Assembly (NCBI RefSeq): GCF_022836935.1
Contig: NZ_CP083239.1
Location: forward strand, 2,184,001 to 2,248,000
Length of the DNA: 64,000 nucleotides
Direction of reading: 5' to 3'
Source of the DNA: Ancylobacter polymorphus
GTDB taxonomy: Bacteria; Pseudomonadota; Alphaproteobacteria; Rhizobiales; Xanthobacteraceae
Part shown: piece after piece, positions 8,437-34,401 of the stretch
How positions within the stretch are numbered: the first letter of the stretch is position 1
Layout: every line of letters begins with the position of its first letter
The notes under the pieces: generated by a model
What the model was told of the DNA's origin: nothing
The model's input: only the letters and a program-made list of their open reading frames with translations
The model's database searches: none
Made by a program: the position numbers and the translations under genes

Positions 8437-10471
<2,035 letters not shown>

Positions 10472-10599
10472 GGAACGGGTCGATCTTGGGTGAAACGGGA
10501 GCCGGGGTCAATCGGCCTGAACCGTCACCCTGCCGCTGCCGTATTCCTGTAGAATGGCTGACGGCGAGACGATTGCAGAACGACAGGTCGGGGAGTGCC

Positions 10600-22979: not shown

Positions 22980-23474
22980 TCAGGCGGTCTCTTCCTCGGC
23001 CGCGTCCTCGGCGTCCTCGTCCGCCTCGGTCGTCGTGGCGCCGAGCTGGGCGGAGAGGTTGCGGTCGATCTTGCGCAGCATCTTGCGGAAACGCTTGCGG
23101 TCCTTGCCGTCGAGGCCGGCGATCATCGTGTCTTCGATGGAGTCGGAAATGGCGTCGATCGCCTCGGCGCGGTGGCGGCCTTCCTCGGTGAGATGCACCC
23201 GCACCAGCCGGGCATCGCCCTCGGAAGCGCGGCGCACCAGCAGACCTTGCGCGGAGAGGCGGCCGACCGTCTTCGACGCGGTCGGCGGGCGCACCTTCAG
23301 CGCGGCGGCGAGCTCGCTCATGGTGCGGCCATCGCTTTCGCAGAGCAGCTTGAGCACCGTTTCCTGACCGGGAAACAGCCCGATATCCTGAAGACGCCGT
23401 GCCGCCAGAGCACGCTGAAGCCGCGCGACGTGATGCAGCCGCTGGCCAATCTTCTTGTCGAAGCCGTCCTTCAT
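22980..23474 (-). CDS. MarR-family transcriptional regulator
   Basis: A 164-residue winged-helix regulator. The DNA-binding core is TMSELAAALKVRPPTASKTVGRL and GLLVRRASEGDARLVRVHLTEEG, with the characteristic D-x-R wing. The last 20 residues are very acidic (TTEADEDAEDAAEEE). ATG at 23472–23474 has AGGGACG upstream. It sits between the quinone-reductase end of the nitrogen-compound operon (119 bp away) and the hydroxyacid dehydrogenase, same strand. It could control either; the ligand is unknown. Confidence 0.88.
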   Translation of the reverse strand: MKDGFDKKIGQRLHHVARLQRALAARRLQDIGLFPGQETVLKLLCESDGRTMSELAAALKVRPPTASKTVGRLSAQGLLVRRASEGDARLVRVHLTEEGRHRAEAIDAISDSIEDTMIAGLDGKDRKRFRKMLRKIDRNLSAQLGATTTEADEDAEDAAEEETA

Positions 23475-23593
23475 GGGCGTCCCTGCCATCCAATGCACGC
23501 CACGGTACCATTATCTAATGCGAAAATAACGCATTGCCGTGACACAAACACCGATGCCAGCGAAAGATCGCCCGGCAAAGAGGGTGCGCGGCG

Positions 23594-24181
23594 TCAGAGC
23601 CGGGCGAAACGGGCCTCGACCTTGGCGAGGAAGGCGGCGCGGCGCTCGGCACTGGCGGAATCCATGCTGTGCAGCGCCAGCCATAGCTTGCGCGCGCGCC
23701 GGTGGACGATGCCGCCAATGCCGTCGAGCAGGATGCGCCGGCCGGGCTGGCCGATCCACAGCCACCAATACCAGGGCGAGCCGAGCGAACTCACCGCCGC
23801 CAGCACGCGGATATTGGTCAGCCGGCGTTCCAGCGAGCGGAAGGGCTTGGGCATGCCGAAGGTCTCGTGCGGCACCAGTACCCGCTCCAGCCAGCCCTTG
23901 AGCATGGCGGGAGGGCCGTACCACCAGGTGGGCGCGACGAAGATGAGGGCGTCGGCCTGCTTCACCCGTTCGAGATGACCGGCGATGCGGACCGTGTTGA
24001 GGCCGGGCTCGTGATAGGCGAGCCGCTCCTCGCGGCCCATCACCGGATCGACGCCCTCGCCATAGAGATCGAGCAAATCCACCTCATGGCCGGCGGCCTT
24101 CAGGCCCCTTACAACCGCGTCGCGGACGCCGGCGGTGAAGCTTTCCGCCACCGGGTGGCAATAGACGACAAGCGCGCGCAT
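23594..24181 (-). CDS. Flavodoxin-fold NAD(P)H dehydrogenase (quinone)
   Basis: A 195-residue cytosolic FMN/FAD flavoprotein of the NQO1/KefF/MdaB type. The N-terminus MRALVVYCHPVAESF and the central FVAPTWWYGPPAMLKGWLERV are signature segments for flavin and quinone binding. It performs two-electron reduction of quinones or azo/nitro compounds. The ATG overlaps the stop of the FAD-linked oxidase by one base (TGATG), so it is translationally coupled and the last gene of the ABC–deaminase operon. It may regenerate or detoxify a quinone-like electron acceptor for that pathway (inference). Confidence 0.87.
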   Translation of the reverse strand: MRALVVYCHPVAESFTAGVRDAVVRGLKAAGHEVDLLDLYGEGVDPVMGREERLAYHEPGLNTVRIAGHLERVKQADALIFVAPTWWYGPPAMLKGWLERVLVPHETFGMPKPFRSLERRLTNIRVLAAVSSLGSPWYWWLWIGQPGRRILLDGIGGIVHRRARKLWLALHSMDSASAERRAAFLAKVEARFARL

Positions 24182-25602
24182 CAGACCACCTCCCCCGTGC
24201 TTCGGCCTTCGAGCCCCGGAAACAGATAGGTGCGGCCGGTGGCAAAGTCGAAGTCGGGATTTTCCCAGGCGATCATCTTGCCGGGGTTGAGCAGGCCGCG
24301 CGGGTCCGCCTGGCGCTTGAAGGCGAGCTGCGCCGGGTCGGTCTGCTTCATGCCGCCCTCTTCCAGCGTGTAGCGGTGCGGGTTGAACACCGGGATGCCC
24401 AACGCCTCATGCAGAGCGACGATTTCCTCAAGCCGCTCCTCGGAGGTAAAGCGCACCAGCGGCAGGCCGAAGCAGGTGACCTTGCCATCGAAGCGCACGA
24501 ATTCGAGATGTGCCGGCACTTCCTCGCCCAGCAGGTCATGCGCCTTCGCCACCAGCCTCAGCTGGTCCGGGAAGGGATAAAGCGTCTGCAGATAGGTGAT
24601 GGCGGGATCAACCCGCAGCGCCCGCAGCGTCGTGTGGTTCCAGGCAAGTTCATAGAGCGGCGGCAGGCCCTTGCGCTCCTCCGGCGGCAGCAGATCGGAG
24701 CGGAACAGCATTTCCCCGCCCCAGCGGGCGGTGAAGCTCTCGAACGCCGCGCGGCCCATCGGCGCCAGCATCACCAGCACGATGTGCCGGCCGTCCGGCA
24801 GGAAGGGGCGATGACGCAAAAAGCTCATCTGCGGAATGGGCGCGGCGATAACGGAAACGAGCTTCTTCAGCAGCGCGTCCTGTTCGCCCAGCGCGTTGGC
24901 ATAGGCGGCGGCCTCGTTGAAGTCGGAAAAGCCGACAATCGCCTCGGTCCAGTCATAGGCCGGCGCGAGCGGCATCTCGATGTCGAGAATGATGCCGTTG
25001 GTGCCATAGGCGTGGGCGACCTTCTGCACCTCCTCGCCAGTCAGGGTGAGGAGGCGCGGGTTCGTCTCCATGGTGGCGAGGCGCAGCGAGAGGATATTGC
25101 CGAGGTCGCGCAGCCCGCCCCAGCTGATGGAGCCGACACCGCCCGAGCCGCCGGCGATGAAGCCGCCCAGCGAGGCGGTGCGGTAGGTGGAAGGGTGTAG
25201 GCGCAGTTCCTGCCCGCTCGCTGCGCAGGCGGCGTCGATGTCCGCCAGCAATGCGCCGGCCTGCGCCCGCACCCGGCCGGGGGCGATGTCGAGCACCTTG
25301 TCGAGGCCGGAGAGGTCGAGCACCAGCCCGCCCGCCAGCGGCATGGCCTGGCCGTAATTGCCGGTGCCCGTGCCGCGCGGGGTGACGGGAATGCCGAGGT
25401 CGAAGCAGGCGGCGAGGATGCGCAGCACCTCCTCCTCGCTAACGGGGGCGGCGAGGATGTCGCCGACCACCCCGTCGAGCTGGCGCTTCAGCGTCGGCGA
25501 GTACCAGTAGAAATCGCGGCTCTTCTGCCGCAGCACGGCCGGGTTGTCCTCCAGCCGGATGCCCGCCAGCCGGGCCTTCAGGGCGGCGATGTCATAGGTC
25601 AC
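24181..25602 (-). CDS. FAD-linked oxidase (GlcD/vanillyl-alcohol-oxidase-type FAD domain)
   Basis: A 473-residue flavoprotein. FAD_binding_4 domain about residues 35–215 with PVTPRGTGTGNYGQAMPLAGG and the GGFIAGGSGGVGSISWGGLRDLG phosphate loop. The C-terminal substrate domain ends in KRQADPRGLLNPGKMIAW, the usual FAD-linked-oxidase C-terminus. No histidine or cysteine in a clear covalent-FAD motif was seen. Relatives oxidise hydroxy-acids or alcohols and pass electrons to O2, quinones or ETF. It overlaps the deaminase gene by 11 bp upstream and the quinone reductase gene by one base downstream. The substrate is probably the deaminated product of the upstream amidohydrolase, which is inference. 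Confidence 0.85.
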   Translation of the reverse strand: MTYDIAALKARLAGIRLEDNPAVLRQKSRDFYWYSPTLKRQLDGVVGDILAAPVSEEEVLRILAACFDLGIPVTPRGTGTGNYGQAMPLAGGLVLDLSGLDKVLDIAPGRVRAQAGALLADIDAACAASGQELRLHPSTYRTASLGGFIAGGSGGVGSISWGGLRDLGNILSLRLATMETNPRLLTLTGEEVQKVAHAYGTNGIILDIEMPLAPAYDWTEAIVGFSDFNEAAAYANALGEQDALLKKLVSVIAAPIPQMSFLRHRPFLPDGRHIVLVMLAPMGRAAFESFTARWGGEMLFRSDLLPPEERKGLPPLYELAWNHTTLRALRVDPAITYLQTLYPFPDQLRLVAKAHDLLGEEVPAHLEFVRFDGKVTCFGLPLVRFTSEERLEEIVALHEALGIPVFNPHRYTLEEGGMKQTDPAQLAFKRQADPRGLLNPGKMIAWENPDFDFATGRTYLFPGLEGRSTGEVV

Positions 25603-26908
25603 GCGGGCGCTCCATCAGATCGTCCAGCTCGGCATAGTCGGGCGGCGTGGTCGCAATCGCGCGGCCCGCGCGGAGCACGTTGCGCGCCGCCAGCGGGCGG
25701 GCGAGCCATTCATTGAGGCTGCGCGCGGGAAAAAGCGAGAGATCGGCGTCGGCTCCCTCGGCCAGCGTGCCGGCCGCCACGCCCATATGCGCCGCCGGCG
25801 CGCGGGTGATGAGCGCCGGCCCGTCGCCATGGGGATGGTCGAGATGGGCGATGCGGGCGGCCTCGCGGTAGACCTCAACGAGATCGAGATCGCCAAAGGC
25901 ATAGAAGGGATCGCGCGCATTGTCGCTCGCGACCATGACCGGGATGCCGCGCGCCCTCATTTCCTGCAGCAAAGTGACGCCGCGCCAGCGCGGGGTACGG
26001 CCGGGCTGGCGGTCCTGCAAATAGAGATTGCACATGGGCAGCGAGACCACGGCGATGCCGGCCTGCGCGACGCGGTCGAGCGTGCGGTCGATCTCGTCCT
26101 CTCCCTTCACCGCCAGCGCGCAGCAATGGCCGGCGAGGATCGGCCCCTCAAATCCGCGCTCCAGCGCCATGCGCGCCAGCAGGTCGAGCCCGCGCCCCTC
26201 GCGGTCGCGCTCGTCCACATGCAGATCGAGCCCGAGGCCGAAGCGCTCGGCGGCGTCGAACAGCCGGGCAAGGCCGGCTTCGAGGTTTGGGGTGAGATAG
26301 GTATAGGCGCCGAGCCGGCCGCCATGGGTGCGCACCAGATCCAGCAACGGCGTGAAGGCCGAATCGTCCAGCACGCGGTCGATGGCGATGAGGCCGACGG
26401 CCTGCAACTCGATCCGCCCGCGCCAGGCCTCGCGCATCTGCGCGAAGACCCGCCACGCGCCGGCAGCGCGCGGCCCATCGGAATCGAGATGGGTGCGAAT
26501 CGCCACCGTGCCATGGGCATAGGCGCAGCGCAGGCCGAAATCGAAGCGCCGGCTTATGTCCTCCTCGTTCCAATGCGCCGCGCGGTCCGCGTTCACCGCG
26601 TTCACCGCGCCGTCGAAACTGCCGTCGGGGTTGGGCGCCCGCTTCCAGATGAAACCCTTGTCGAGATGGGTGTGGATGTCGACAAGGCCGGGCAGCACCA
26701 GCCCGCCCGAGAGGTCGAGCCGGGGTCCGGCCTCGACCAGTGCGCCGGCCGGGGCGAGGCGGGCGAGGCGCGCCCCTTCCACCGCGATGTCGAGCGCCAC
26801 CAGCCCTTCCGCATCCGCCGTCCCGGCAAAGGACGGCACGAGACAGGCGGGCGCGCGCACATGGCCGAGCACGAAGGCGGCGGGCGGGGCCTTCAGATCG
26901 AGCGTCAC
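25592..26908 (-). CDS. Cytosine-deaminase-like amidohydrolase
   Basis: A 438-residue metal-dependent hydrolase of the cytosine deaminase/COG0402 group. Visible metal and catalytic residues: HxH in LVDIHTHLDKGF, His in LHVDERDREG, His-Cys-Cys in LAGHCCAL and Asp in VASDNARDPFYAFGD. These four elements are the CodA pattern. It should deaminate or hydrolyse a cyclic imine/amide. GTG at 26906–26908 overlaps the permease stop by four bases (GTGA). Being locked between an ABC permease and an FAD oxidase gene, it is more likely to act on an imported cyclic nitrogen compound than on cytosine for salvage. The exact substrate is unknown. Confidence 0.85.
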   Translation of the reverse strand: MTLDLKAPPAAFVLGHVRAPACLVPSFAGTADAEGLVALDIAVEGARLARLAPAGALVEAGPRLDLSGGLVLPGLVDIHTHLDKGFIWKRAPNPDGSFDGAVNAVNADRAAHWNEEDISRRFDFGLRCAYAHGTVAIRTHLDSDGPRAAGAWRVFAQMREAWRGRIELQAVGLIAIDRVLDDSAFTPLLDLVRTHGGRLGAYTYLTPNLEAGLARLFDAAERFGLGLDLHVDERDREGRGLDLLARMALERGFEGPILAGHCCALAVKGEDEIDRTLDRVAQAGIAVVSLPMCNLYLQDRQPGRTPRWRGVTLLQEMRARGIPVMVASDNARDPFYAFGDLDLVEVYREAARIAHLDHPHGDGPALITRAPAAHMGVAAGTLAEGADADLSLFPARSLNEWLARPLAARNVLRAGRAIATTPPDYAELDDLMERPRDL

Positions 26909-27687
26909 GTCCGGCCACCCAGTTCGCTTTCGTGCCAGCGCCGCAGCACCAGCCAGGACAGCAGGCTCAGCGCCGCATAGATGAGGATGCCGGTGAGCGA
27001 GATGAGCAGCAGCGCGGCGAACAGGCGCGGAATGTTCAGCCGGTAGGCGGATTCGACGATGCGGAAGGCGAGGCCCGAACCCTGCCCGGCCGAGCCGGCG
27101 GCGATCTCGCCGACCACGGCGCCGATCAGCGCCAGCCCGCCGGCAATGCGCAGCCCGCCGAGGAAATAGGGCAGGGCGGTGGGCAGTTTGAGCTGCGCCA
27201 GGGTCTGCCAGCGCGAGGCGCCGGAGAGGCGGAACAGGTCGCGCAGGTTCGGGTCGACCGAGTTCAGCCCCAGCGTGGTGTTGGACAGAACCGGGAAGAA
27301 GGCGACGATCCAGGCGCAGAGCAGCACCGCGCTGTCGGTGGAGAGGTAGATCAGCATCAGCGGCGCCACGGCGATGACGGGCGTCACCTGCAGAATGACA
27401 GCGATGGGGAACAGCGAGAATTCGACGATGCGGGCGCTGGCGAACAGCAGCGCCAGGGCGACGCCGCCGACCACGGCCAGCGCCAGCGCGACCAGCGTGG
27501 TTTGCAGCGTCACCAGCATGGAGGCGAACAGCACCGCGCGGTCCTTCACCAGCGTCGCCAGCACCGCGTCCGGGGCCGGCAGCACATAGGGTGGCAGGTT
27601 GTTGAGCTTCACCACCGCTTCCCAGCCGAGGATGAGCGCCGCCAGCACGCCGAGGGGGAGCAGCCAGCGCAGCGGCGAGGTGGCCAT
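26905..27687 (-). CDS. ABC transporter permease (nitrate/sulfonate/pyrimidine class)
   Basis: A 260-residue inner-membrane permease with about six helices. The BPD_transp_1 signature loop is present (FRLSGASRWQTLAQLKLPTALPYFLGGLRIA) and LIGAVVGEIAAGSAGQGSGLAF follows. It belongs with the TauC/SsuC/ThiX class that partners NMT1-like binding proteins. ATG at 27685–27687, 11 bp after the ATPase stop. The unit imports the substrate of the downstream deaminase. Confidence 0.9.
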   Translation of the reverse strand: MATSPLRWLLPLGVLAALILGWEAVVKLNNLPPYVLPAPDAVLATLVKDRAVLFASMLVTLQTTLVALALAVVGGVALALLFASARIVEFSLFPIAVILQVTPVIAVAPLMLIYLSTDSAVLLCAWIVAFFPVLSNTTLGLNSVDPNLRDLFRLSGASRWQTLAQLKLPTALPYFLGGLRIAGGLALIGAVVGEIAAGSAGQGSGLAFRIVESAYRLNIPRLFAALLLISLTGILIYAALSLLSWLVLRRWHESELGGRT

Positions 27688-27698
27688 GCCCGCCCCCG

Positions 27699-28514
27699 CT
27701 AGCGCGCGTCCATCGCCCGGGCGAGGGCGAGGGAGGTTTCGCGGCACAGCGCCGCATATTCCGGCGAGGTGCGGAAGGCTTCGTCGCGCGGCTGATCCGG
27801 CGCGATGGTCAGTTCCGCCGAGACGCGTCCGGGGCGGGCGCGGAAGACCAAGATGCGCGACGAGAGATAGACCGATTCGAACACGGAATGGGTGACGAAG
27901 ACGATGGTGCAGTTGAGGCGCCGCCACACCTCCAACAGATCATTGTTGAGCTTGAAGCGGGTGATCTCGTCCAGCGCGGCGAAAGGCTCGTCCATCAAGA
28001 GCAGGCGCGGCTTGGTGACGAGCGCGCGGGCGATGGAAACGCGCATCTTCATGCCGCCGGAAAGCTCGCGCGGATAGGCGTTACGGAAGGCGGAAAGGCC
28101 GACCAGCTCCAGCGCTTCCATGATGGCGGGCTCGGCCTCGCGCCGGCCGACCCCGGCGAGTTTCAGCGGCAGATGCACATTGCCGAACACGCTGGCCCAG
28201 GGCATCAGCGTCGGTTCCTGAAACACGAAGCCGATGGCGTGGGGATGCTGCGCGCGCCGGGCCTTCTCGTCCGCGTCCCAGTCCAGCCGGCCCTCGCTCG
28301 GCTCGGCGAGGCCGGCGATGAGCCGCAGCGCCGTCGATTTGCCGCAGCCGGAGGGGCCGAGCAGCGAGACGAACTCGCCCGCGCGGACCTCCATATCCAG
28401 CCCTTCCAGCGCGGTGACGCTGTTGGCAAAGCGTTTGCCGACGCCGGAAAGCCGCAGCAGCGGCGCGCCCTCGCCGGCCGGACGGGGTGCGATGTCCGAC
28501 GGGTGAGCGTTCAT
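27699..28514 (-). CDS. ABC transporter ATP-binding protein (nitrate/sulfonate/pyrimidine class)
   Basis: A 271-residue cytosolic ATPase. Walker A GPSGCGKST, Q-loop QEPTLMPW, signature ELSGGMKMRVSIARAL, Walker B LLLMDEPFAALDE and H-loop THSVFE are all present. The MPWASVFGNV and SGGMKMR forms are typical of Tau/Ssu/ThiZ-type importers. It sits 37 bp after the binding-protein gene and 11 bp before the permease gene in a six-gene operon. Confidence 0.93.
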   Translation of the reverse strand: MNAHPSDIAPRPAGEGAPLLRLSGVGKRFANSVTALEGLDMEVRAGEFVSLLGPSGCGKSTALRLIAGLAEPSEGRLDWDADEKARRAQHPHAIGFVFQEPTLMPWASVFGNVHLPLKLAGVGRREAEPAIMEALELVGLSAFRNAYPRELSGGMKMRVSIARALVTKPRLLLMDEPFAALDEITRFKLNNDLLEVWRRLNCTIVFVTHSVFESVYLSSRILVFRARPGRVSAELTIAPDQPRDEAFRTSPEYAALCRETSLALARAMDAR

Positions 28515-28551
28515 GCCGGGCTCGCGCGGCGAGCAGGGGGCGAGGCACGCC

Positions 28552-29577
28552 TCATTTCGGCGCCAGCTCCTTGCCGACGCCCTTGTTGACGAAGTGCAGC
28601 GTGTAGGATTTGGCGTAGTCGATGCCCGGCGCCAGCACCTTGGCCTTCACCATCTTGTCGTAGAACGCCTTCATCCGCGCATCGCTCATCGCACCGATGC
28701 CGAGCGTGGTCGTGTCGCCGGAATCGACGATGCCATATTCCTTCATCTTGGCGATGGAGAAGGCGATCATGGCGTCGGTCATCTCCGGATTGTCCTGTTT
28801 GATCAGGGCATTGGCCTTGGCATTGTCGCCATACAGATAATTGTACCATCCGATGATCGAGGCATCGACGAAGCGCTGCACGAGGTCGGGGTTCTGCTTC
28901 ACCAGCTCGGTGCGGGTCTCAATAGTTGTGGCGTAGGTCTCGAAACCGTAATCGGCGAGCAGGAACAGGCTCGGCTTGAAGCCGCCCTGCTGTTCCACCG
29001 CATAAGGCTCGGAGGTGATGTAGCCCTGCATGGCGCTGTTCTTGTCGACGAGGAACGGCGCGGCGTTGAAGGTGTAGGGCTTCACCTGGCTCTCGCTGAA
29101 GCCGTAATCGGCGATCAGCCATTGGTAGTAGCTCGCCAGCCCTTCCTTGGAAATGAACAGCGTCCGGGTCTTCAGCTGCTCGAACTGCGTCACGTCGGGA
29201 TGGGCGATGAGGACCTGCGGGTCCTTCTGGAACATCGCGGCGACGACTTCGGTGGGGATGTTCTCCACCACCGAGGAGATCGCCTGCAGCATGTTGGCGC
29301 CCATGTAGAAATCGATCTTGCCCACCGGCAGCAGCAGCCGGTTATTGGCCTGCGGGCCGCCGGGCATGATGGTGACGTCGAGCCCGTATTTCGCATAGGT
29401 GCCATCGGCTACCGCCTGGTAGAAGCCGCCATGCTCGGCCTGGGCGACCCAGTTGGTGCCGAAGGTCACCTTGTCCGCCGCACGCGCCGGCCCGGCCGTG
29501 AGCAGAGTGGCGAGGGCCAGCGCACCCAGCGCGGCGAGAGGGAAGAGGGAACGCAAGCGCGGCAGACGCGGGCGCAT
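28552..29577 (-). CDS. NMT1/THI5-like ABC transporter substrate-binding protein
   Basis: A 341-residue periplasmic protein. Signal peptide at 1–30 (LAALGALALATLLTAGPARA). The mature part begins DKVTFGTNWVAQAEHGGFYQAVADGTYAKYGLD, the pyrimidine/riboflavin-precursor NMT1/THI5 pattern; NRLLLPVGKIDFYMG continues it. ATG at 29575–29577 is chosen because GGAG is six bases upstream; in-frame starts at 29589 and 29601 lack this. Relatives bind formylaminopyrimidine, HMP, riboflavin or aromatic sulfonates. No TPP riboswitch precedes it, so thiamine-precursor uptake is less likely than catabolic uptake. Confidence 0.85.
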   Translation of the reverse strand: MRPRLPRLRSLFPLAALGALALATLLTAGPARAADKVTFGTNWVAQAEHGGFYQAVADGTYAKYGLDVTIMPGGPQANNRLLLPVGKIDFYMGANMLQAISSVVENIPTEVVAAMFQKDPQVLIAHPDVTQFEQLKTRTLFISKEGLASYYQWLIADYGFSESQVKPYTFNAAPFLVDKNSAMQGYITSEPYAVEQQGGFKPSLFLLADYGFETYATTIETRTELVKQNPDLVQRFVDASIIGWYNYLYGDNAKANALIKQDNPEMTDAMIAFSIAKMKEYGIVDSGDTTTLGIGAMSDARMKAFYDKMVKAKVLAPGIDYAKSYTLHFVNKGVGKELAPK

Positions 29578-29651
29578 CGAAATCTCCATCCGGGCTAACA
29601 AGGGCGGTGCGTGACGGAACCCATGCCCTCATGATAGGCGAGCTTAATCGC

Positions 29652-29686
29652 CATGCACATATGCTGTCGCGAGAGAACTGTGCATG
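29652..29686. promoter_or_regulatory. Inverted repeat in the divergent promoter region
   Basis: CATGCACA (29652–29659) and TGTGCATG (29679–29686) are exact inverted repeats 19 bases apart, centred in the 152-bp gap between the ABC operon and the ridA-like operon. ATGCTG and CAGCAT form a second, interleaved inverted pair. A shared operator for both operons is likely. No regulator gene is adjacent. Confidence 0.5.
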
Positions 29687-29729
29687 CGCAGCATCGCCCG
29701 CCTTCGGCCCGGCTGAACGGAGAACCCCC

Positions 29730-30119
29730 ATGCTTCGCCATTTCGTGCCACCCGCCATCCGCGCCCCTTTCGCCCGCTACAGCCACGCGGTGGAAATCCC
29801 CGCCGGCGCCCGGTTGTTGTTGGTCTCCGGCCAGCTCGGCATCACCCCGGACGACGCCATTCCCGACGGGGTGGAAGAACAGGCCGCGCTGTGCTTCGCC
29901 GCCATCGAGGCCTGCCTCACCGAGGCCGGCATGGGGCGCGCCGATATTGTGCGGCTCAACGCCTATGTCACCGACCGGGCTTATCTCGCCGGCTATATGG
30001 CGGCGCGCGACCGCTTCATCGCTGCCCCGCCGCCGGCGTCGACGCTGATGATCGTCTCCGGCTTCGCCCGGCCGGAATTCAAGGTGGAAATCGAGGCGCT
30101 GGCGGCCCGGCAGGATTGA
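29730..30119 (+). CDS. Rid-family (RidA-like) protein, non-canonical
   Basis: A 129-residue cytosolic YjgF/RidA-fold protein: LLVSGQLGITPDDAIPDG, ADIVRLNAYVTDRAYL and FKVEIEALAARQD are family strands. The catalytic arginine of true RidA enamine/imine deaminases lies in a PAR triplet; here the triplet is PAS (PPPASTLMIV). It is therefore probably not a housekeeping RidA but a Rid4–7-type member with a pathway role. ATG 29730 has ACGGAGAA upstream. It is the first gene of a three-gene operon with creatininase-like and Ldh-like genes, divergent from the ABC–deaminase operon. Confidence 0.82.
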   Translation: MLRHFVPPAIRAPFARYSHAVEIPAGARLLLVSGQLGITPDDAIPDGVEEQAALCFAAIEACLTEAGMGRADIVRLNAYVTDRAYLAGYMAARDRFIAAPPPASTLMIVSGFARPEFKVEIEALAARQD

Positions 30120-30155
30120 GCCTAGAACGCCGCCAGCAACGACCGGAGCCGTGCC

Positions 30156-30974
30156 ATGCCCCCCAAACGCTTCTGGACCGAACTCAGCTGGACCGACTTC
30201 GCCCAGGGCGACACGGAGAACTGGATCGCCGTCTTGCCGGTGGCGGCGGTGGAACAGCACGGGCCGCATCTGCCGGTGGGCGTCGACGCCTTCATCGGCG
30301 AGGGCTATCTCAAGGAAGTGGTGCGGCTGCTGCCGGACGATATCCCCGCCCTGTTCCTGCCCATGCAGGCCATCGGCAAGTCGAACGAGCATCTCGATTT
30401 TCCCGGCACGCTGACGCTTTCGGCCGAGACGGTGATCCGCGCCTGGACGGAGATCGGCGAGAGCGTGCACCGCGCCGGGGTGCGCAAGCTGGTGATCGTC
30501 AATTCCCATGGCGGCAATGTGCCGATCCTCGACATCGTCGCGCGCGAATTGCGGGCGCGGCTCGGCATGCTCGCGGTCATGGTCTCCTGGCATCGCTTCG
30601 GCTATCCCGAGGGCCTGTTCACCGCGCAGGAACGCCAGCACGGCATCCATGCCGGCGGGGTGGAGACCTCGCTGATGCTCGCCTTCCGGCCCGATACGGT
30701 GCGGACGGACGAGGTGCGGGACTTTCCTCCGGTGACGCTGGCCATGGAGCAGGAATTCGCCTTTCTGCGCGCCGGCTCGCCGGCCGGGTTCGGCTGGATG
30801 GCGCAGGATATCCAGCCCACCGGCGCGATGGGCGATGCCACCGAGGCGAGCTTTGAGAAGGGCGAGGTCTGCGCGCTGTACGGGGCGCGCTCTTTTGTCG
30901 AACTGCTCGGCGATGTCCATCGTTTCGATCTGTCGCGGCTGCCGGCGGGGCCGCGCGGCGGGGTGGTCCGCTGA
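30156..30974 (+). CDS. Creatininase-family amidohydrolase
   Basis: A 272-residue cytosolic metalloenzyme. VEQHGPHLPVGVDAF carries the Glu/His/Asp metal ligands, IVNSHGGNVPIL is the second family signature, and HAGGVETSLML provides the late His/Glu. The family opens cyclic amides (creatinine), deformylates FAPy intermediates and includes other C–N hydrolases. Substrate unknown. Its stop codon overlaps the ATG of the next gene (TGATG). The co-location with a cytosine-deaminase-like enzyme and a pyrimidine-type importer suggests hydrolysis of a ring amide formed in the same pathway. Confidence 0.86.
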   Translation: MPPKRFWTELSWTDFAQGDTENWIAVLPVAAVEQHGPHLPVGVDAFIGEGYLKEVVRLLPDDIPALFLPMQAIGKSNEHLDFPGTLTLSAETVIRAWTEIGESVHRAGVRKLVIVNSHGGNVPILDIVARELRARLGMLAVMVSWHRFGYPEGLFTAQERQHGIHAGGVETSLMLAFRPDTVRTDEVRDFPPVTLAMEQEFAFLRAGSPAGFGWMAQDIQPTGAMGDATEASFEKGEVCALYGARSFVELLGDVHRFDLSRLPAGPRGGVVR

Positions 30975-32035
30975 TGGAAGGCTCGGTCGCGCGGGCGGCG
31001 TTCCATTCCCGCCCTCTCTCGCTTGACGCTGCCCGCGCCTATGCGGCGCGGGTACTGGAGCGCTTCGGTGCGGCGCCCGGCAATGCCGCGGTGACCGCCG
31101 ACGCGCTGGTGCGCGCCGAGGCGGACGGGCTCATCACCCATGGCCTGACCCGGTTGCCGAGCTACAGCGCCATGGTCGCCGCCGGCAAGATCGACGGCCA
31201 TGCGGTGCCGCGCATGCGCCCCGTCGCGCCGGCGGTGCTGGCGGTGGATGCCGGCAACGGCTTTGCCTACCCCGCCCTCGCTCATGCTCTTCCGACATTG
31301 GCGGAAATGGCGCGGGTGAGCGGGGTGGCGCTGATGGCGGTGCGGCGCTCCAGCCATTTCGGCGTCGCCGGCCAGCCGGTGGAGACGCTGGCGAATGAAG
31401 GTCTCGTCGGCCTCGCCTTTTCCAACGCCTCGGCCTCCATCGCCCCCTGGGGCGGGAAGCGGCCGGTGTTCGGCACCAACCCCATCGCCTTCGCCACGCC
31501 GCTGAAGGGACGGGCGCCGGCGGTGGTGGACCTCTCCGTCGCCAAGGTGGCGCGCGGCAATCTGCTCGCCGCCGTGCAGCGTGGCGAGGAGGCCATTCCT
31601 CCGGGCTGGGCCTTCGACCGCGAGGGCAATCCCACCACTGACGCCAAGGCGGGGCTCGCCGGCACCATGGTGCCGATGGGTGAGGCCAAGGGCACCGCTC
31701 TCGCCTTCGTCGTCGAGGTGATGGCGGCGGCGCTTACCGCCTCCACCTTCTCCTTCGATGCGCCGAGCTTCTTCACCGGCGAGGGGCCGCCCGCTTCGGT
31801 CGGCCATGTGGTGATCGCCATCAATCCCGGCCTGCTGGCGGGCGATGCCTATCTCGACCATCTCGAACGCCTGGCGCTCACCATCGAGAGCGAGCCCGGC
31901 GCGCGGCTGCCGGGAACGCGCCGGCTGGTCAACCGCGAACGCGCGGCCCGCGAGGGTGTGACGCTCACCGTCGGCGTGCAGCGGGCGCTGGCGCAGATGG
32001 GCTATGTCGACGCTCCGGAAGCGGCGGGGGCCTGA
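30974..32035 (+). CDS. Malate/L-lactate (Ldh/AllD)-family NAD(P)-dependent dehydrogenase
   Basis: A 353-residue cytosolic oxidoreductase of the atypical Ldh_2 fold. Landmarks: ADGLITHGLTRLPSYS, the catalytic histidine in RSSHFGVAGQPV, GTNPIAFATP and VVDLSVAKVARGNL. The family includes ureidoglycolate dehydrogenase (AllD), sulfolactate dehydrogenase and cyclic-imine reductases. In this operon it probably oxidises a 2-hydroxy- or ureido-acid, or reduces an imine, made from the imported nitrogen compound. Translationally coupled to the creatininase gene. Followed by a bidirectional terminator. Confidence 0.86.
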   Translation: MEGSVARAAFHSRPLSLDAARAYAARVLERFGAAPGNAAVTADALVRAEADGLITHGLTRLPSYSAMVAAGKIDGHAVPRMRPVAPAVLAVDAGNGFAYPALAHALPTLAEMARVSGVALMAVRRSSHFGVAGQPVETLANEGLVGLAFSNASASIAPWGGKRPVFGTNPIAFATPLKGRAPAVVDLSVAKVARGNLLAAVQRGEEAIPPGWAFDREGNPTTDAKAGLAGTMVPMGEAKGTALAFVVEVMAAALTASTFSFDAPSFFTGEGPPASVGHVVIAINPGLLAGDAYLDHLERLALTIESEPGARLPGTRRLVNRERAAREGVTLTVGVQRALAQMGYVDAPEAAGA

Positions 32036-32096: not shown

Positions 32097-32621
32097 TCAC
32101 TTATAGGCGGCGATCGCCTTGAGGATCAGCTCGCGGGCGCGCTCCGGGCCTTCCCAGCCGGCGACCGTGACCTTCTTGCCCTTCTCCAGATCCTTGTAAT
32201 GGGTGAAGAAGTGGCCGATCTGCTCGATGATCAGCTCCGGCAGGTCGGCATAGCTCTTGATCTTGGAGTGGTACGGATAGACCGAGTCCGCCGGCACGGC
32301 GAGGATCTTCTCGTCGCCGCCCTTCTCGTCGGTCATCATCAGCACGCCGACCGGGCGGCAGGCGATAACCGAACCCGCGAGCAACGGCATGGGCGACAGC
32401 ACGATCACGTCGATCGGGTCGCCGTCATCGCCGAGCGTGTTCGGCACGAAGCCGTAATTGCCGGGATAGAACATCGGCGTGTGCAGAAAGCGGTCGACGA
32501 ACAGCGCGCCCGATTCCTTGTCGATCTCGTATTTCACCGGCGCGCCGCCGGCGGGGATTTCGATGATGGCGTGGACTTCGTCAGGCGGGTTGGGCCCGAC
32601 CGAAATGCGCGAAATATCCAT
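32097..32621 (-). CDS. ppa: Inorganic pyrophosphatase (family I)
   Basis: A 174-residue cytosolic Mg-dependent enzyme that hydrolyses pyrophosphate and pulls biosynthetic reactions forward. FYPGNYGFVPNTLGDDGDPIDVIV contains the DGDPID catalytic motif, and VKYEIDKESG and YKDLEKGKKVTV are further family landmarks. Length is normal for a bacterial hexameric form. The start (32619–32621) is upstream of MDISRISVGPNPPDEV. It is transcribed away from the IS element, whose left end lies about 110 bp upstream. Confidence 0.96.
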   Translation of the reverse strand: MDISRISVGPNPPDEVHAIIEIPAGGAPVKYEIDKESGALFVDRFLHTPMFYPGNYGFVPNTLGDDGDPIDVIVLSPMPLLAGSVIACRPVGVLMMTDEKGGDEKILAVPADSVYPYHSKIKSYADLPELIIEQIGHFFTHYKDLEKGKKVTVAGWEGPERARELILKAIAAYK

Positions 32622-32730: not shown

Positions 32731-34401
32731 CCCACATTCTCCAAGTAAGTCGCTGATTTCGCTGTCGTAATCGTGATATTTCGCATATAAATCATGGCGT
32801 TGACGGCTGCGAGGGGCGCGTTTCATGGATCACCTGGAGGGTGCGGGCTTGGCGCGGGGAGATCGGGTTGATTTCGACCGCCGTGTGCGTCTGGAGTTCC
32901 GTGGTGCGCAGATCAGTTCAGACGGTGGCCTGCTGGTGATGCGCGAGCTTGATGACGTGCTCGGCCTGTCCAATCTGGCGTCGGAGGCGCTGCGAGACAG
33001 CCGCACCGGGAAGAACACGCTCCATCGGCTTGACGGATTGTTCCGGCAATCGGTGTTCGGACGACTGGCCGGATACGAGGATGTGAACGATGCCGACCGC
33101 TTGGCCCTCGATCCCGTGATGCGTCAGGTCGTTGGCGGCAGGGCCGTCGAGGCGCAAGCTGCTTCGGCATCGCAGATGGGACGGTTCGAGACCGAGACGC
33201 TGGCTCTGGCCGCGAACCGGGCGGCGCTGGCCGATCTGAACGGCCAATGGATCGACCGGTTTCATGACCGCAACGGGTTGAAATACATCGTGCTGGACAT
33301 GGACAGCTCGGTCAGCCCCACCCACGGCGATCAGGAAGGTGCTGCCTGGAACGGGCATTTCGACTGCACCTGCTATCACCCCATCTTCTTGTTCAACCAG
33401 TTTGGCATGCTGGAGCGCTGCGCCCTGCGTAACGGCAATGCCCACAGCGCCGATGGCTGGCGGGATGTCCTTGATCCCGTCATTGCCCGATATGCTGGCC
33501 GCGACCTTGGTGGACGCTTCTTCCGGGCCGACGCTGCCTACGCGATCCCCGCGATCTATATGCGGCTGGAAGAAGCCAGGTTCTTCTACGCCATCCGTCT
33601 GCCCGCCAACGCCGTCTTGCGCGAGAAGATCGCGCATCGGCTGACACGGCCCGTGGGACGGCCTTCGCTGACCAAGGTCAAACGGTTCTTCGAGGACTTC
33701 GAGTATCAGGCGGCGTCCTGGGACAAGCCGCGCCGCGTCATCGCCAAGATCGAATGGCATCCGGGCGAGCTGTTCCCCAAAGTCGGCTTCATCGTCACCA
33801 ACCTGCCGATGGAGCCAGACTGGGTGGTGAGGTTCTACAACCAGCGCGGCACCGCAGAGCAGCACATCAAGGAAGGCAAATATGCCTTTCGCTGGACGCG
33901 GCTGTCATGCCGGAAGTTCCGGCACAACGAGGTGCGGCTGCAACTGCACGCGCTGGCCTACAACCTGGCAACCTTCCTGCGCTGCATCGAACTGCCCGAG
34001 GCCATGGCGGACTGGTCGTTGACCAGCCTGCAACTCAAGCTGATCAAGATCGGCGCCCGCGTCGTCCGCCACGCCCGCGCCATTACCTTCCAGTTGGCCG
34101 AGGTCGCCGTCACCGGCCCGATGGTGCGGGCCGTCCTTGCCGCCATCCGCCGTCTTCGAACGCCTCCGTCATGCGCATGACCACGATCCATGCCCAAGCT
34201 GAACGAAAGCGGCAGGACAGGTCCGTCTGCCGCGCGGAAAAGCGGCTCTGCCGGGCCAGAATGCTGCGGGTTCGAGGCTTGATCCACCCGACTTCGGCCG
34301 TTTGCGCGACGACAGACACCGCTCGGGGCGAAAAACGCTTGCCCAGCGAGCAAAATCAGGCGATCTTGAAGTCAAGCGGCAGGCCACTTGGGGAATGTCG
34401 G
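32731..34401 (+). mobile_element. Complete IS1380-like insertion sequence
   Basis: A 1671-bp element. The left end CCCACATTCTCCAAGT (32731–32746) and the reverse complement of the right end (34386–34401, CCGACATTCCCCAAGT) match at 14 of 16 positions. A 5-bp ATCAA duplication flanks it. It carries one transposase gene with the IS1380/DDE pattern. Size, ends and target duplication length fit the IS1380 family (family knowledge). Base composition of the insertion is less G/C-biased than the neighbours, suggesting transfer. About 220 bp at the right end are non-coding. Confidence 0.9.
32825..34180 (+). CDS. IS1380-family transposase
   Basis: A 451-residue DDE transposase. Possible catalytic aspartates lie in YIVLDMDSSVSPTHGDQEG and in RFFRADAAYAIPAIY; the late glutamate is expected around YNQRGTAEQHIKEGKYAFRW, the family's C-terminal Y-x-x-R-G-x-x-E box. 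An N-terminal segment (FRGAQISSDGGLLVMRELDD) is also typical of IS1380. The frame is intact from ATG (GAGGGG upstream) to TGA, so the element may still be mobile. Confidence 0.9.
   Translation: MDHLEGAGLARGDRVDFDRRVRLEFRGAQISSDGGLLVMRELDDVLGLSNLASEALRDSRTGKNTLHRLDGLFRQSVFGRLAGYEDVNDADRLALDPVMRQVVGGRAVEAQAASASQMGRFETETLALAANRAALADLNGQWIDRFHDRNGLKYIVLDMDSSVSPTHGDQEGAAWNGHFDCTCYHPIFLFNQFGMLERCALRNGNAHSADGWRDVLDPVIARYAGRDLGGRFFRADAAYAIPAIYMRLEEARFFYAIRLPANAVLREKIAHRLTRPVGRPSLTKVKRFFEDFEYQAASWDKPRRVIAKIEWHPGELFPKVGFIVTNLPMEPDWVVRFYNQRGTAEQHIKEGKYAFRWTRLSCRKFRHNEVRLQLHALAYNLATFLRCIELPEAMADWSLTSLQLKLIKIGARVVRHARAITFQLAEVAVTGPMVRAVLAAIRRLRTPPSCA

Follow-up and report, generated by a model that had tools for sequence, protein, structure and literature searches.

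The DNA stretch analysed here (64,000 nucleotides of Ancylobacter polymorphus, hereafter the window) belongs to a 5.2 Mb genome of the Ancylobacter type and harbours, at positions 23594-32035, nine genes which, according to the list of open reading frames (ORFs) and to Pfam and NCBIfam searches, form two divergent operons around a single control region of about 152 bp. We read this locus as a cluster for the catabolism of pterins, the ring of folates, with a probability of about 0.8. The minus-strand operon encodes a periplasmic binding protein, an ATPase, a permease, a deaminase, a flavin adenine dinucleotide (FAD) protein and a quinone reductase, in this order and with a MarR gene next to it, and the plus-strand operon encodes a Rid protein, a creatininase-family protein and an Ldh_2 dehydrogenase. 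An earlier note on this DNA had described two such operons with a common control region and overlapping or near-touching genes, a layout that is borne out by the same searches, as is the presence of every gene it named; its seven-gene set is complete, but the importer consists of three genes, so that the total is nine.

28552-29577 (or 29589), minus: periplasmic binding protein of the NMT1/THI5 family (Pfam)
27699-28514, minus: ATPase of an ATP-binding cassette (ABC) transporter (PF00005)
26905-27687, minus: ABC transporter permease (PF00528)
25592-26908, minus: pterin-deaminase-like amidohydrolase, GTG start
24181-25602, minus: VAO-fold FAD enzyme, orthologue of PDB 6V42, GTG start
23594-24181, minus: Flavodoxin_2-type NAD(P)H quinone/flavin reductase (QR; PF02525, 94 bits)
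22980-23498, minus: MarR-family regulator, probably of the cluster (PF12802/PF01047)
29578-29729, no strand: shared divergent control region, 152 bp, from the Rid start to the binding-protein start
29631-29661, minus: conserved 31-bp element TATGTGCATnnCGATTAAGCTCGCCTATCAT, candidate operator/promoter
29730-30119, plus: Rid-family protein without the RidA arginine (PF01042, 77 bits)
30156-30974, plus: creatininase-family metallohydrolase, not a creatininase (PF02633, 250 bits)
30974-32035, plus: Ldh_2-family dehydrogenase, an Ancylobacter-specific addition (PF02615, 310 bits)

The coordinates give overlaps of 4 bp (deaminase/permease), 11 bp (FAD/deaminase) and 1 bp (both QR/FAD and Ldh_2/creatininase family), and gaps of 11 bp (permease-ATPase) and 37 bp (ATPase-binding protein) among the importer genes and of 36 bp between the Rid and creatininase-family genes. 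Within the control region, the 31-bp element has a single match across the window at up to three mismatches, with none in 100 shuffles, and of the 12 intergenic regions aligned, that of the window among them, 11 contain its part TATGTGCAT, L014 being the exception; L059, with a spacing of 1104 bp, was excluded from this alignment.

Conservation of the gene set

A scan with a deaminase alignment, covering a single genome of each species, confirmed at least 589 stretches, of which the best 80 were kept, so that the resulting counts favour close relatives. Presence of a gene was accepted at 30-40% identity, depending on the family, with coverage of half the length, and some of the loci are cut by contig ends. 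The 80 loci contain the deaminase (80), the FAD enzyme (76), QR (70), the permease and the ATPase (69 each), the binding protein (68), Rid (63), the creatininase-family gene (61), MarR (34) and Ldh_2 (12). The gene set is a conserved module, most frequently laid out with the creatininase-family and Rid genes divergent from binding protein, ATPase, permease, deaminase, FAD enzyme and QR, and the arrangement is far beyond chance, as the same genes in similar order recur in many genera. In five loci of Bosea (L038, L057, L058, L079 and L080) only the deaminase, FAD, QR and MarR genes are found.

Deaminases above the PRK07583 cut-off occur in 24 of the 25 genomes of the genus (the source genome included) and in 28 of 41 relatives overall. 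A search with the flavoprotein matched 32 of 398 genomes of the phylum at an E-value of 1e-70 or better, again with the source genome counted, and among 30 flavoprotein loci, one per genome and flanked by some 1.5 kb at either end, the deaminase was present in 26 and the reductase in 26. Wider stretches, taken for the remaining four and for the two genomes that had yielded no locus, also contain the deaminase in G417 (L151), G246 (L156), G415 (L164) and G107 (L166), and it lies near the flavoprotein in 30 of the 32 genomes.

Equivalents of the module exist in Beta- and Gammaproteobacteria besides Alphaproteobacteria. That of Pantoea (L104) comprises a LysR regulator, a VanB-type reductase, a 399-aa amidohydrolase, Rid, the creatininase-family protein, binding protein, ATPase, permease and FAD enzyme, and close variants of it are found in Klebsiella (L103) and on a plasmid of Comamonadaceae (L107). 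The L107 deaminase was matched in 16 of 150 genomes of one bacterial family, that of G246, and 12 stretches were taken from 11 of these 16 genomes (G436, G470, G476, G507 and G559 were left out); all 12 carry the deaminase gene along with those of the three-gene importer, and the FAD and creatininase-family genes are present in 11 each. The FAD gene is also carried by 140 plasmid records, nine of which, chosen to spread over organisms, were examined. As long antisense frames in GC-rich DNA disturb the calling of neighbours by the longest open frame, these calls were supplemented with annotated plasmid records and tblastn counts.

The proteins of the cluster

The window deaminase reaches 596 bits against a cut-off of 403 with NF005759/PRK07583, a model which itself bears the name cytosine deaminase, and shares 69% identity with P0020, which goes by the name Pterin deaminase; two relatives carry such a name. 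Its closest relative among the matches listed (92%) is from Ancylobacter sp. IITR112. Residues H79, H81, H230, E233, H261 and D329 are invariant in 21 aligned rows and coincide with CodA positions, and we take them, by the roles of their CodA counterparts, to be the metal and acid-base residues of an amidohydrolase. The match of Escherichia coli CodA to the window deaminase amounts to 103 bits, and Asn330, at a position where CodA has Asp, is invariant in the 21 rows.

The accessible text of one 2022 report states that folic acid is deaminated by Arad3529 and, together with pteroic acid, by a recombinant enzyme of 399 residues from Variovorax sp. F1 (37.0% identical to Arad3529), that in V. 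paradoxus endoribonuclease (Rid-type) genes lie downstream of the predicted genes and, in a figure legend, that F1 cell extract did not degrade deaminopteroic acid (PMC9513972). Going by names and identity levels, Arad3529 (from Agrobacterium radiobacter K84) and the pterin deaminase (PDA) of Variovorax sp. F1 would fall in the same amidohydrolase subgroup as the window deaminase, and a Rid-type gene is likewise part of the window module. The published work, as far as it was accessible, covers the deamination step. The abstract of the Arad3529 study reportedly proposes an undescribed pathway of pterin degradation. The L107 deaminase has six relatives in the Variovorax group (P0294, P0304, P0317, P0321, P0280 and P0253, of 423-426 aa), which share 36-40% identity with the deaminases of four rhizobial modules (L099, L105, L106 and L082) and 39-42% with the window enzyme. 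A control amidohydrolase outside the module, L089, reaches 27-31% with both groups. The identity levels would fit Arad3529 being a module deaminase, without amounting to proof. L089, located in the source genome (G000:C1:2827048-2828247), is a second cytosine-deaminase-like amidohydrolase, with 251 bits for PRK05985 and 206 bits for PRK07583, both below the cut-off.

The window FAD protein is 64% identical to PDB 6V42, with full-length homology and the same fold, and is an orthologue of the 6V42/6V43 flavin oxygenase. The PDB title of 6V42 reads "flavin oxygenase ... involved in folate catabolism", and its nearest relative in the analysed set (86%) sits inside a module with the same gene order. 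In 29 further loci (nine plasmid and 20 wide), searched at 1e-15, QR is present in 14, a VanB/PDR-type reductase in seven, both in one and neither in nine. That the two reductase types nearly exclude each other suggests that either can supply the flavin enzyme with electrons. Two module-type FAD genes are adjacent in L155 and L168, where they might divide the labour between related pteridines.

The creatininase-family protein scores 93 bits with the creatininase model TIGR04448 (cut-off 235) and 103 bits with MftE (cut-off 172). The NGHYEN motif of creatininase holds a glutamate ligand, and HGG replaces HYE in all 14 aligned module proteins, so that both the score and the motif led to the rejection of a creatininase identity. 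Pteridine-like substrates have a precedent in this family: BrbF, a formamidase of Rhizobiales, acts on a formylaminopyrimidine in riboflavin synthesis, according to the accessible text of its report (PMC9478397). BrbF resembles the proposed window hydrolase as a creatininase-family enzyme of Rhizobiales with a pteridine-related pyrimidine as substrate, and differs in being biosynthetic.

Alignment of the Rid protein with TdcF places the alanine of PAST against the arginine of the TdcF motif PTRS, in a register left uncertain by the low similarity (33 bits), and all 16 module Rid proteins have PAST or PVST, without arginine. The catalytic arginine of RidA/TdcF is Arg105, and with Ala in its aligned place an identity as RidA imine deaminase was set aside.

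The third plus-strand gene is an addition found only in Ancylobacter and lies outside the conserved core. The earlier note had counted it as an AllD-like member of the pathway; the AllD ureidoglycolate dehydrogenase model gives 136 bits against a cut-off of 496, and this identity was rejected. The best PDB relative is 1wtj/2cwh, a delta1-piperideine-2-carboxylate reductase. The 12 occurrences of the window gene in the 80 loci are all of the Ancylobacter type (11 are titled Ancylobacter and one, L010, 'Xanthobacteraceae bacterium 501b'), it was not found in the nine plasmid and 20 wide loci, and relatives borne on plasmids reach about 52% identity at best.

Proposed pathway and alternative substrates

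In the pathway we propose, the ThiY-like ABC importer would take up oxidised pterins derived from folates, such as pterin-6-carboxylate, and the amidohydrolase would exchange the 2-amino group for oxygen, giving lumazines and ammonia, as published for the presumed relatives Arad3529 and that of Variovorax F1. The VAO-fold flavin oxygenase, supplied by the NAD(P)H reductase, would then oxidise the lumazine, the creatininase-family metallohydrolase would open or deacylate an activated ring amide, and the Rid protein would handle an enamine, an imine or another unstable intermediate. In Ancylobacter only, the Ldh_2 dehydrogenase might perhaps act on a carboxylated imine or a 2-hydroxy acid fragment. 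The benefit would be nitrogen and possibly carbon, and the MarR protein probably controls the divergent promoters. The earlier note had a catabolic pathway in which a cyclic nitrogen compound is imported, deaminated, oxidised and has its ring opened; as a class this is well supported by the gene content, but the simple pyrimidine, hydantoin or lactam named there as substrate is not the best choice, given that the flavoprotein is orthologous to an oxygenase of folate catabolism and that the deaminase groups with named pterin deaminases.

Several points weigh against pterin catabolism. In 13 of the 80 loci, some of them at contig ends, one or more of the importer genes went undetected. No full FAD gene is present in four (L011, L029, L041 and L066): L011, from Ancylobacter dichloromethanicus, retains two end pieces of it with the rest of the cluster, and L029, L041 and L066 gave no match to it. 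The best FAD match has no deaminase beside it in G232 (L162) and G239 (L167), the deaminase of G232 adjoining a second FAD gene (L163), and in L159 the FAD and creatininase-family genes are missing within 19 kb of the deaminase and importer. The folate link of the flavoprotein derives from the PDB title of 6V42, and no open-licence paper was found that names both 6V42 and 6V43 or gives the reaction or its position in a pathway. Arad3529 and the F1 enzyme are taken as relatives from names and identity levels, the 399-aa F1 enzyme was not identified among the listed proteins, where those of Variovorax have 423-426 aa, and the 'pterin deaminase' names may have been transferred by similarity. As the RidA arginine is missing, a role of the Rid protein as imine deaminase is unsupported. 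Finally, the folds closest to the binding protein bind thiamin and a thiamin precursor, not pterin.

This last point keeps thiamin-derived pyrimidines as a rival, though an improbable one. Hydroxymethylpyrimidine (HMP) or formylaminopyrimidine (FAMP) would be imported by the ThiY-like system and lose its 4-amino group to the deaminase, and ring opening would fall to the flavoprotein and the hydrolases. The binding protein has the same fold as the ThiY/thiamin-type NMT1 proteins, its closest folds being thiamin- and FAMP-binding proteins and Thi5; the likeness to 3ix1 and 4nmy is one of fold, at 15-16% identity. A thiamin pyrophosphate (TPP) riboswitch and a thiC-like gene do occur in the same window, but that gene is 13 kb distant, and the nine annotated plasmid regions contain no thiamin-named product; moreover, the flavoprotein orthologue and the grouping of the deaminase point to folate and pterins. 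Oxidised purines (8-oxoguanine and its relatives), or a mixed purine/pterin waste with pterins as a mere side substrate, seem no more probable. Relatives of 8-oxoguanine deaminase occur in 11 of the 80 loci, 71-100% identical to the first of two tested proteins (647 and 657 bits, cut-off 532), and among the eight covered by the comparison of gene order they stand directly beside Rid in six and one frame off in two; the other 69 loci keep the core, yet no such gene was found in them. Two plasmid modules have allophanate, isochorismatase-type and ureidoglycolate-type genes in their vicinity, and L041, L162 and L167 contain isochorismatase-type relatives (31-34%), which would also suit purines; but among the 109 loci searched, a ureidoglycolate lyase gene turned up in one, and the same holds for hydantoinase/oxoprolinase and for amidase genes.

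Least likely of all is the simple cyclic amide or pyrimidine (cytosine, creatinine, a hydantoin or a lactam) of the earlier note. It has in its favour the family names (cytosine deaminase, creatininase, AllD-like dehydrogenase), but the creatininase and AllD models stay far under their cut-offs, the match to CodA is low and Asn330 replaces its Asp, and the flavoprotein orthologue indicates folate; pathways for cytosine, creatinine or hydantoin were rejected as first choice on account of the failing family-specific models and this orthologue.

The proposed pterin pathway resembles in the order and logic of its steps the Rut pyrimidine pathway (RutA-G), where a ring of the uracil type is handled by a flavin oxygenase and its reductase together with a hydrolase, a Rid protein and a transporter. 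The enzyme families differ: a VAO-fold enzyme stands for the luciferase-like oxygenase, a creatininase-family protein for the isochorismatase-like hydrolase, the importer is of the ABC type and a deaminase is placed in front. A bolder and rather doubtful version would see in the module a complete, Proteobacteria-wide mineralisation of the pterin ring along Rut lines: once deamination has taken place, the uracil half of lumazine would be cleaved by the VAO-fold oxygenase, its ureido part would be split off by the creatininase-family hydrolase, and the resulting enamine would pass to the arginine-less Rid protein for processing. If true, both this ring-cleaving chemistry of a VAO-fold oxygenase and the steps that follow deamination would be novel.

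The bacterial disposal of the folate ring is largely unsettled, although deaminases are known. The accessible text of the 2022 Variovorax paper leaves open the fate of the deaminated product (PMC9513972). For this gap the cluster offers a set of genes, from importer and reductase to hydrolase, Rid protein and regulator, that is found in similar form among Alphaproteobacteria, Betaproteobacteria and Gammaproteobacteria. The cluster may also be relevant to what becomes of conjugates of sulfonamides with pterins in sewage sludge, for which a pterin deaminase step has been invoked with the enzyme undetected, as stated in the accessible part of that study (PMC9686132). The pathway is 'undescribed', as the earlier note had it, to the extent that no account of the whole was found in open-licence papers, but pterin deaminases have been published and the PDB has an entry for the flavin oxygenase. 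Likewise, neither a described operon with the same gene set nor a full pterin pathway was found in open-licence papers, a search that left out most subscription journals, so that a description may exist. Two enzymes of the set are already known elsewhere, and most steps of the pathway are inferred.

Neighbouring genes and minor observations

Some related modules have further genes beside them. A 2-oxoglutarate (2OG)-Fe(II) oxygenase gene stands between the reductase and creatininase-family genes in Paroceanicella and Sulfitobacter, with a 70% relative in L052. The module adjoins paoABC/xdhC in Rhizobium leguminosarum WSM1325, lies near urea amidolyase, amidase, isochorismatase-type and allophanate hydrolase genes in R. 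etli CIAT 652, and near a ureidoglycolate lyase gene in Nitratireductor OM-1; the paoABC/xdhC, urea amidolyase-type and ureidoglycolate lyase neighbours are rare and give hints only. In L041, from a metagenome-assembled genome of Herbaspirillum with the deaminase and no FAD enzyme, a FAD subunit of the xanthine dehydrogenase family and an NtaA/DmoA-type monooxygenase are encoded nearby, perhaps as an alternative oxidation route. The L059 locus of Ancylobacter lacus has a deaminase with 53% identity to the window protein, against 71-86% for the other cluster genes.

Within the window, a 174-aa pyrophosphatase-like ORF (32097-32621, minus) lies past the cluster and is followed by a 451-aa transposase-like ORF (32825-34180, plus). 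The TPP riboswitch occupies positions 10353-10480, ahead of the thiC-like ORF (8437-10359, minus), and would represent ordinary control of thiamin biosynthesis; these three ORFs were named by reading their translations.

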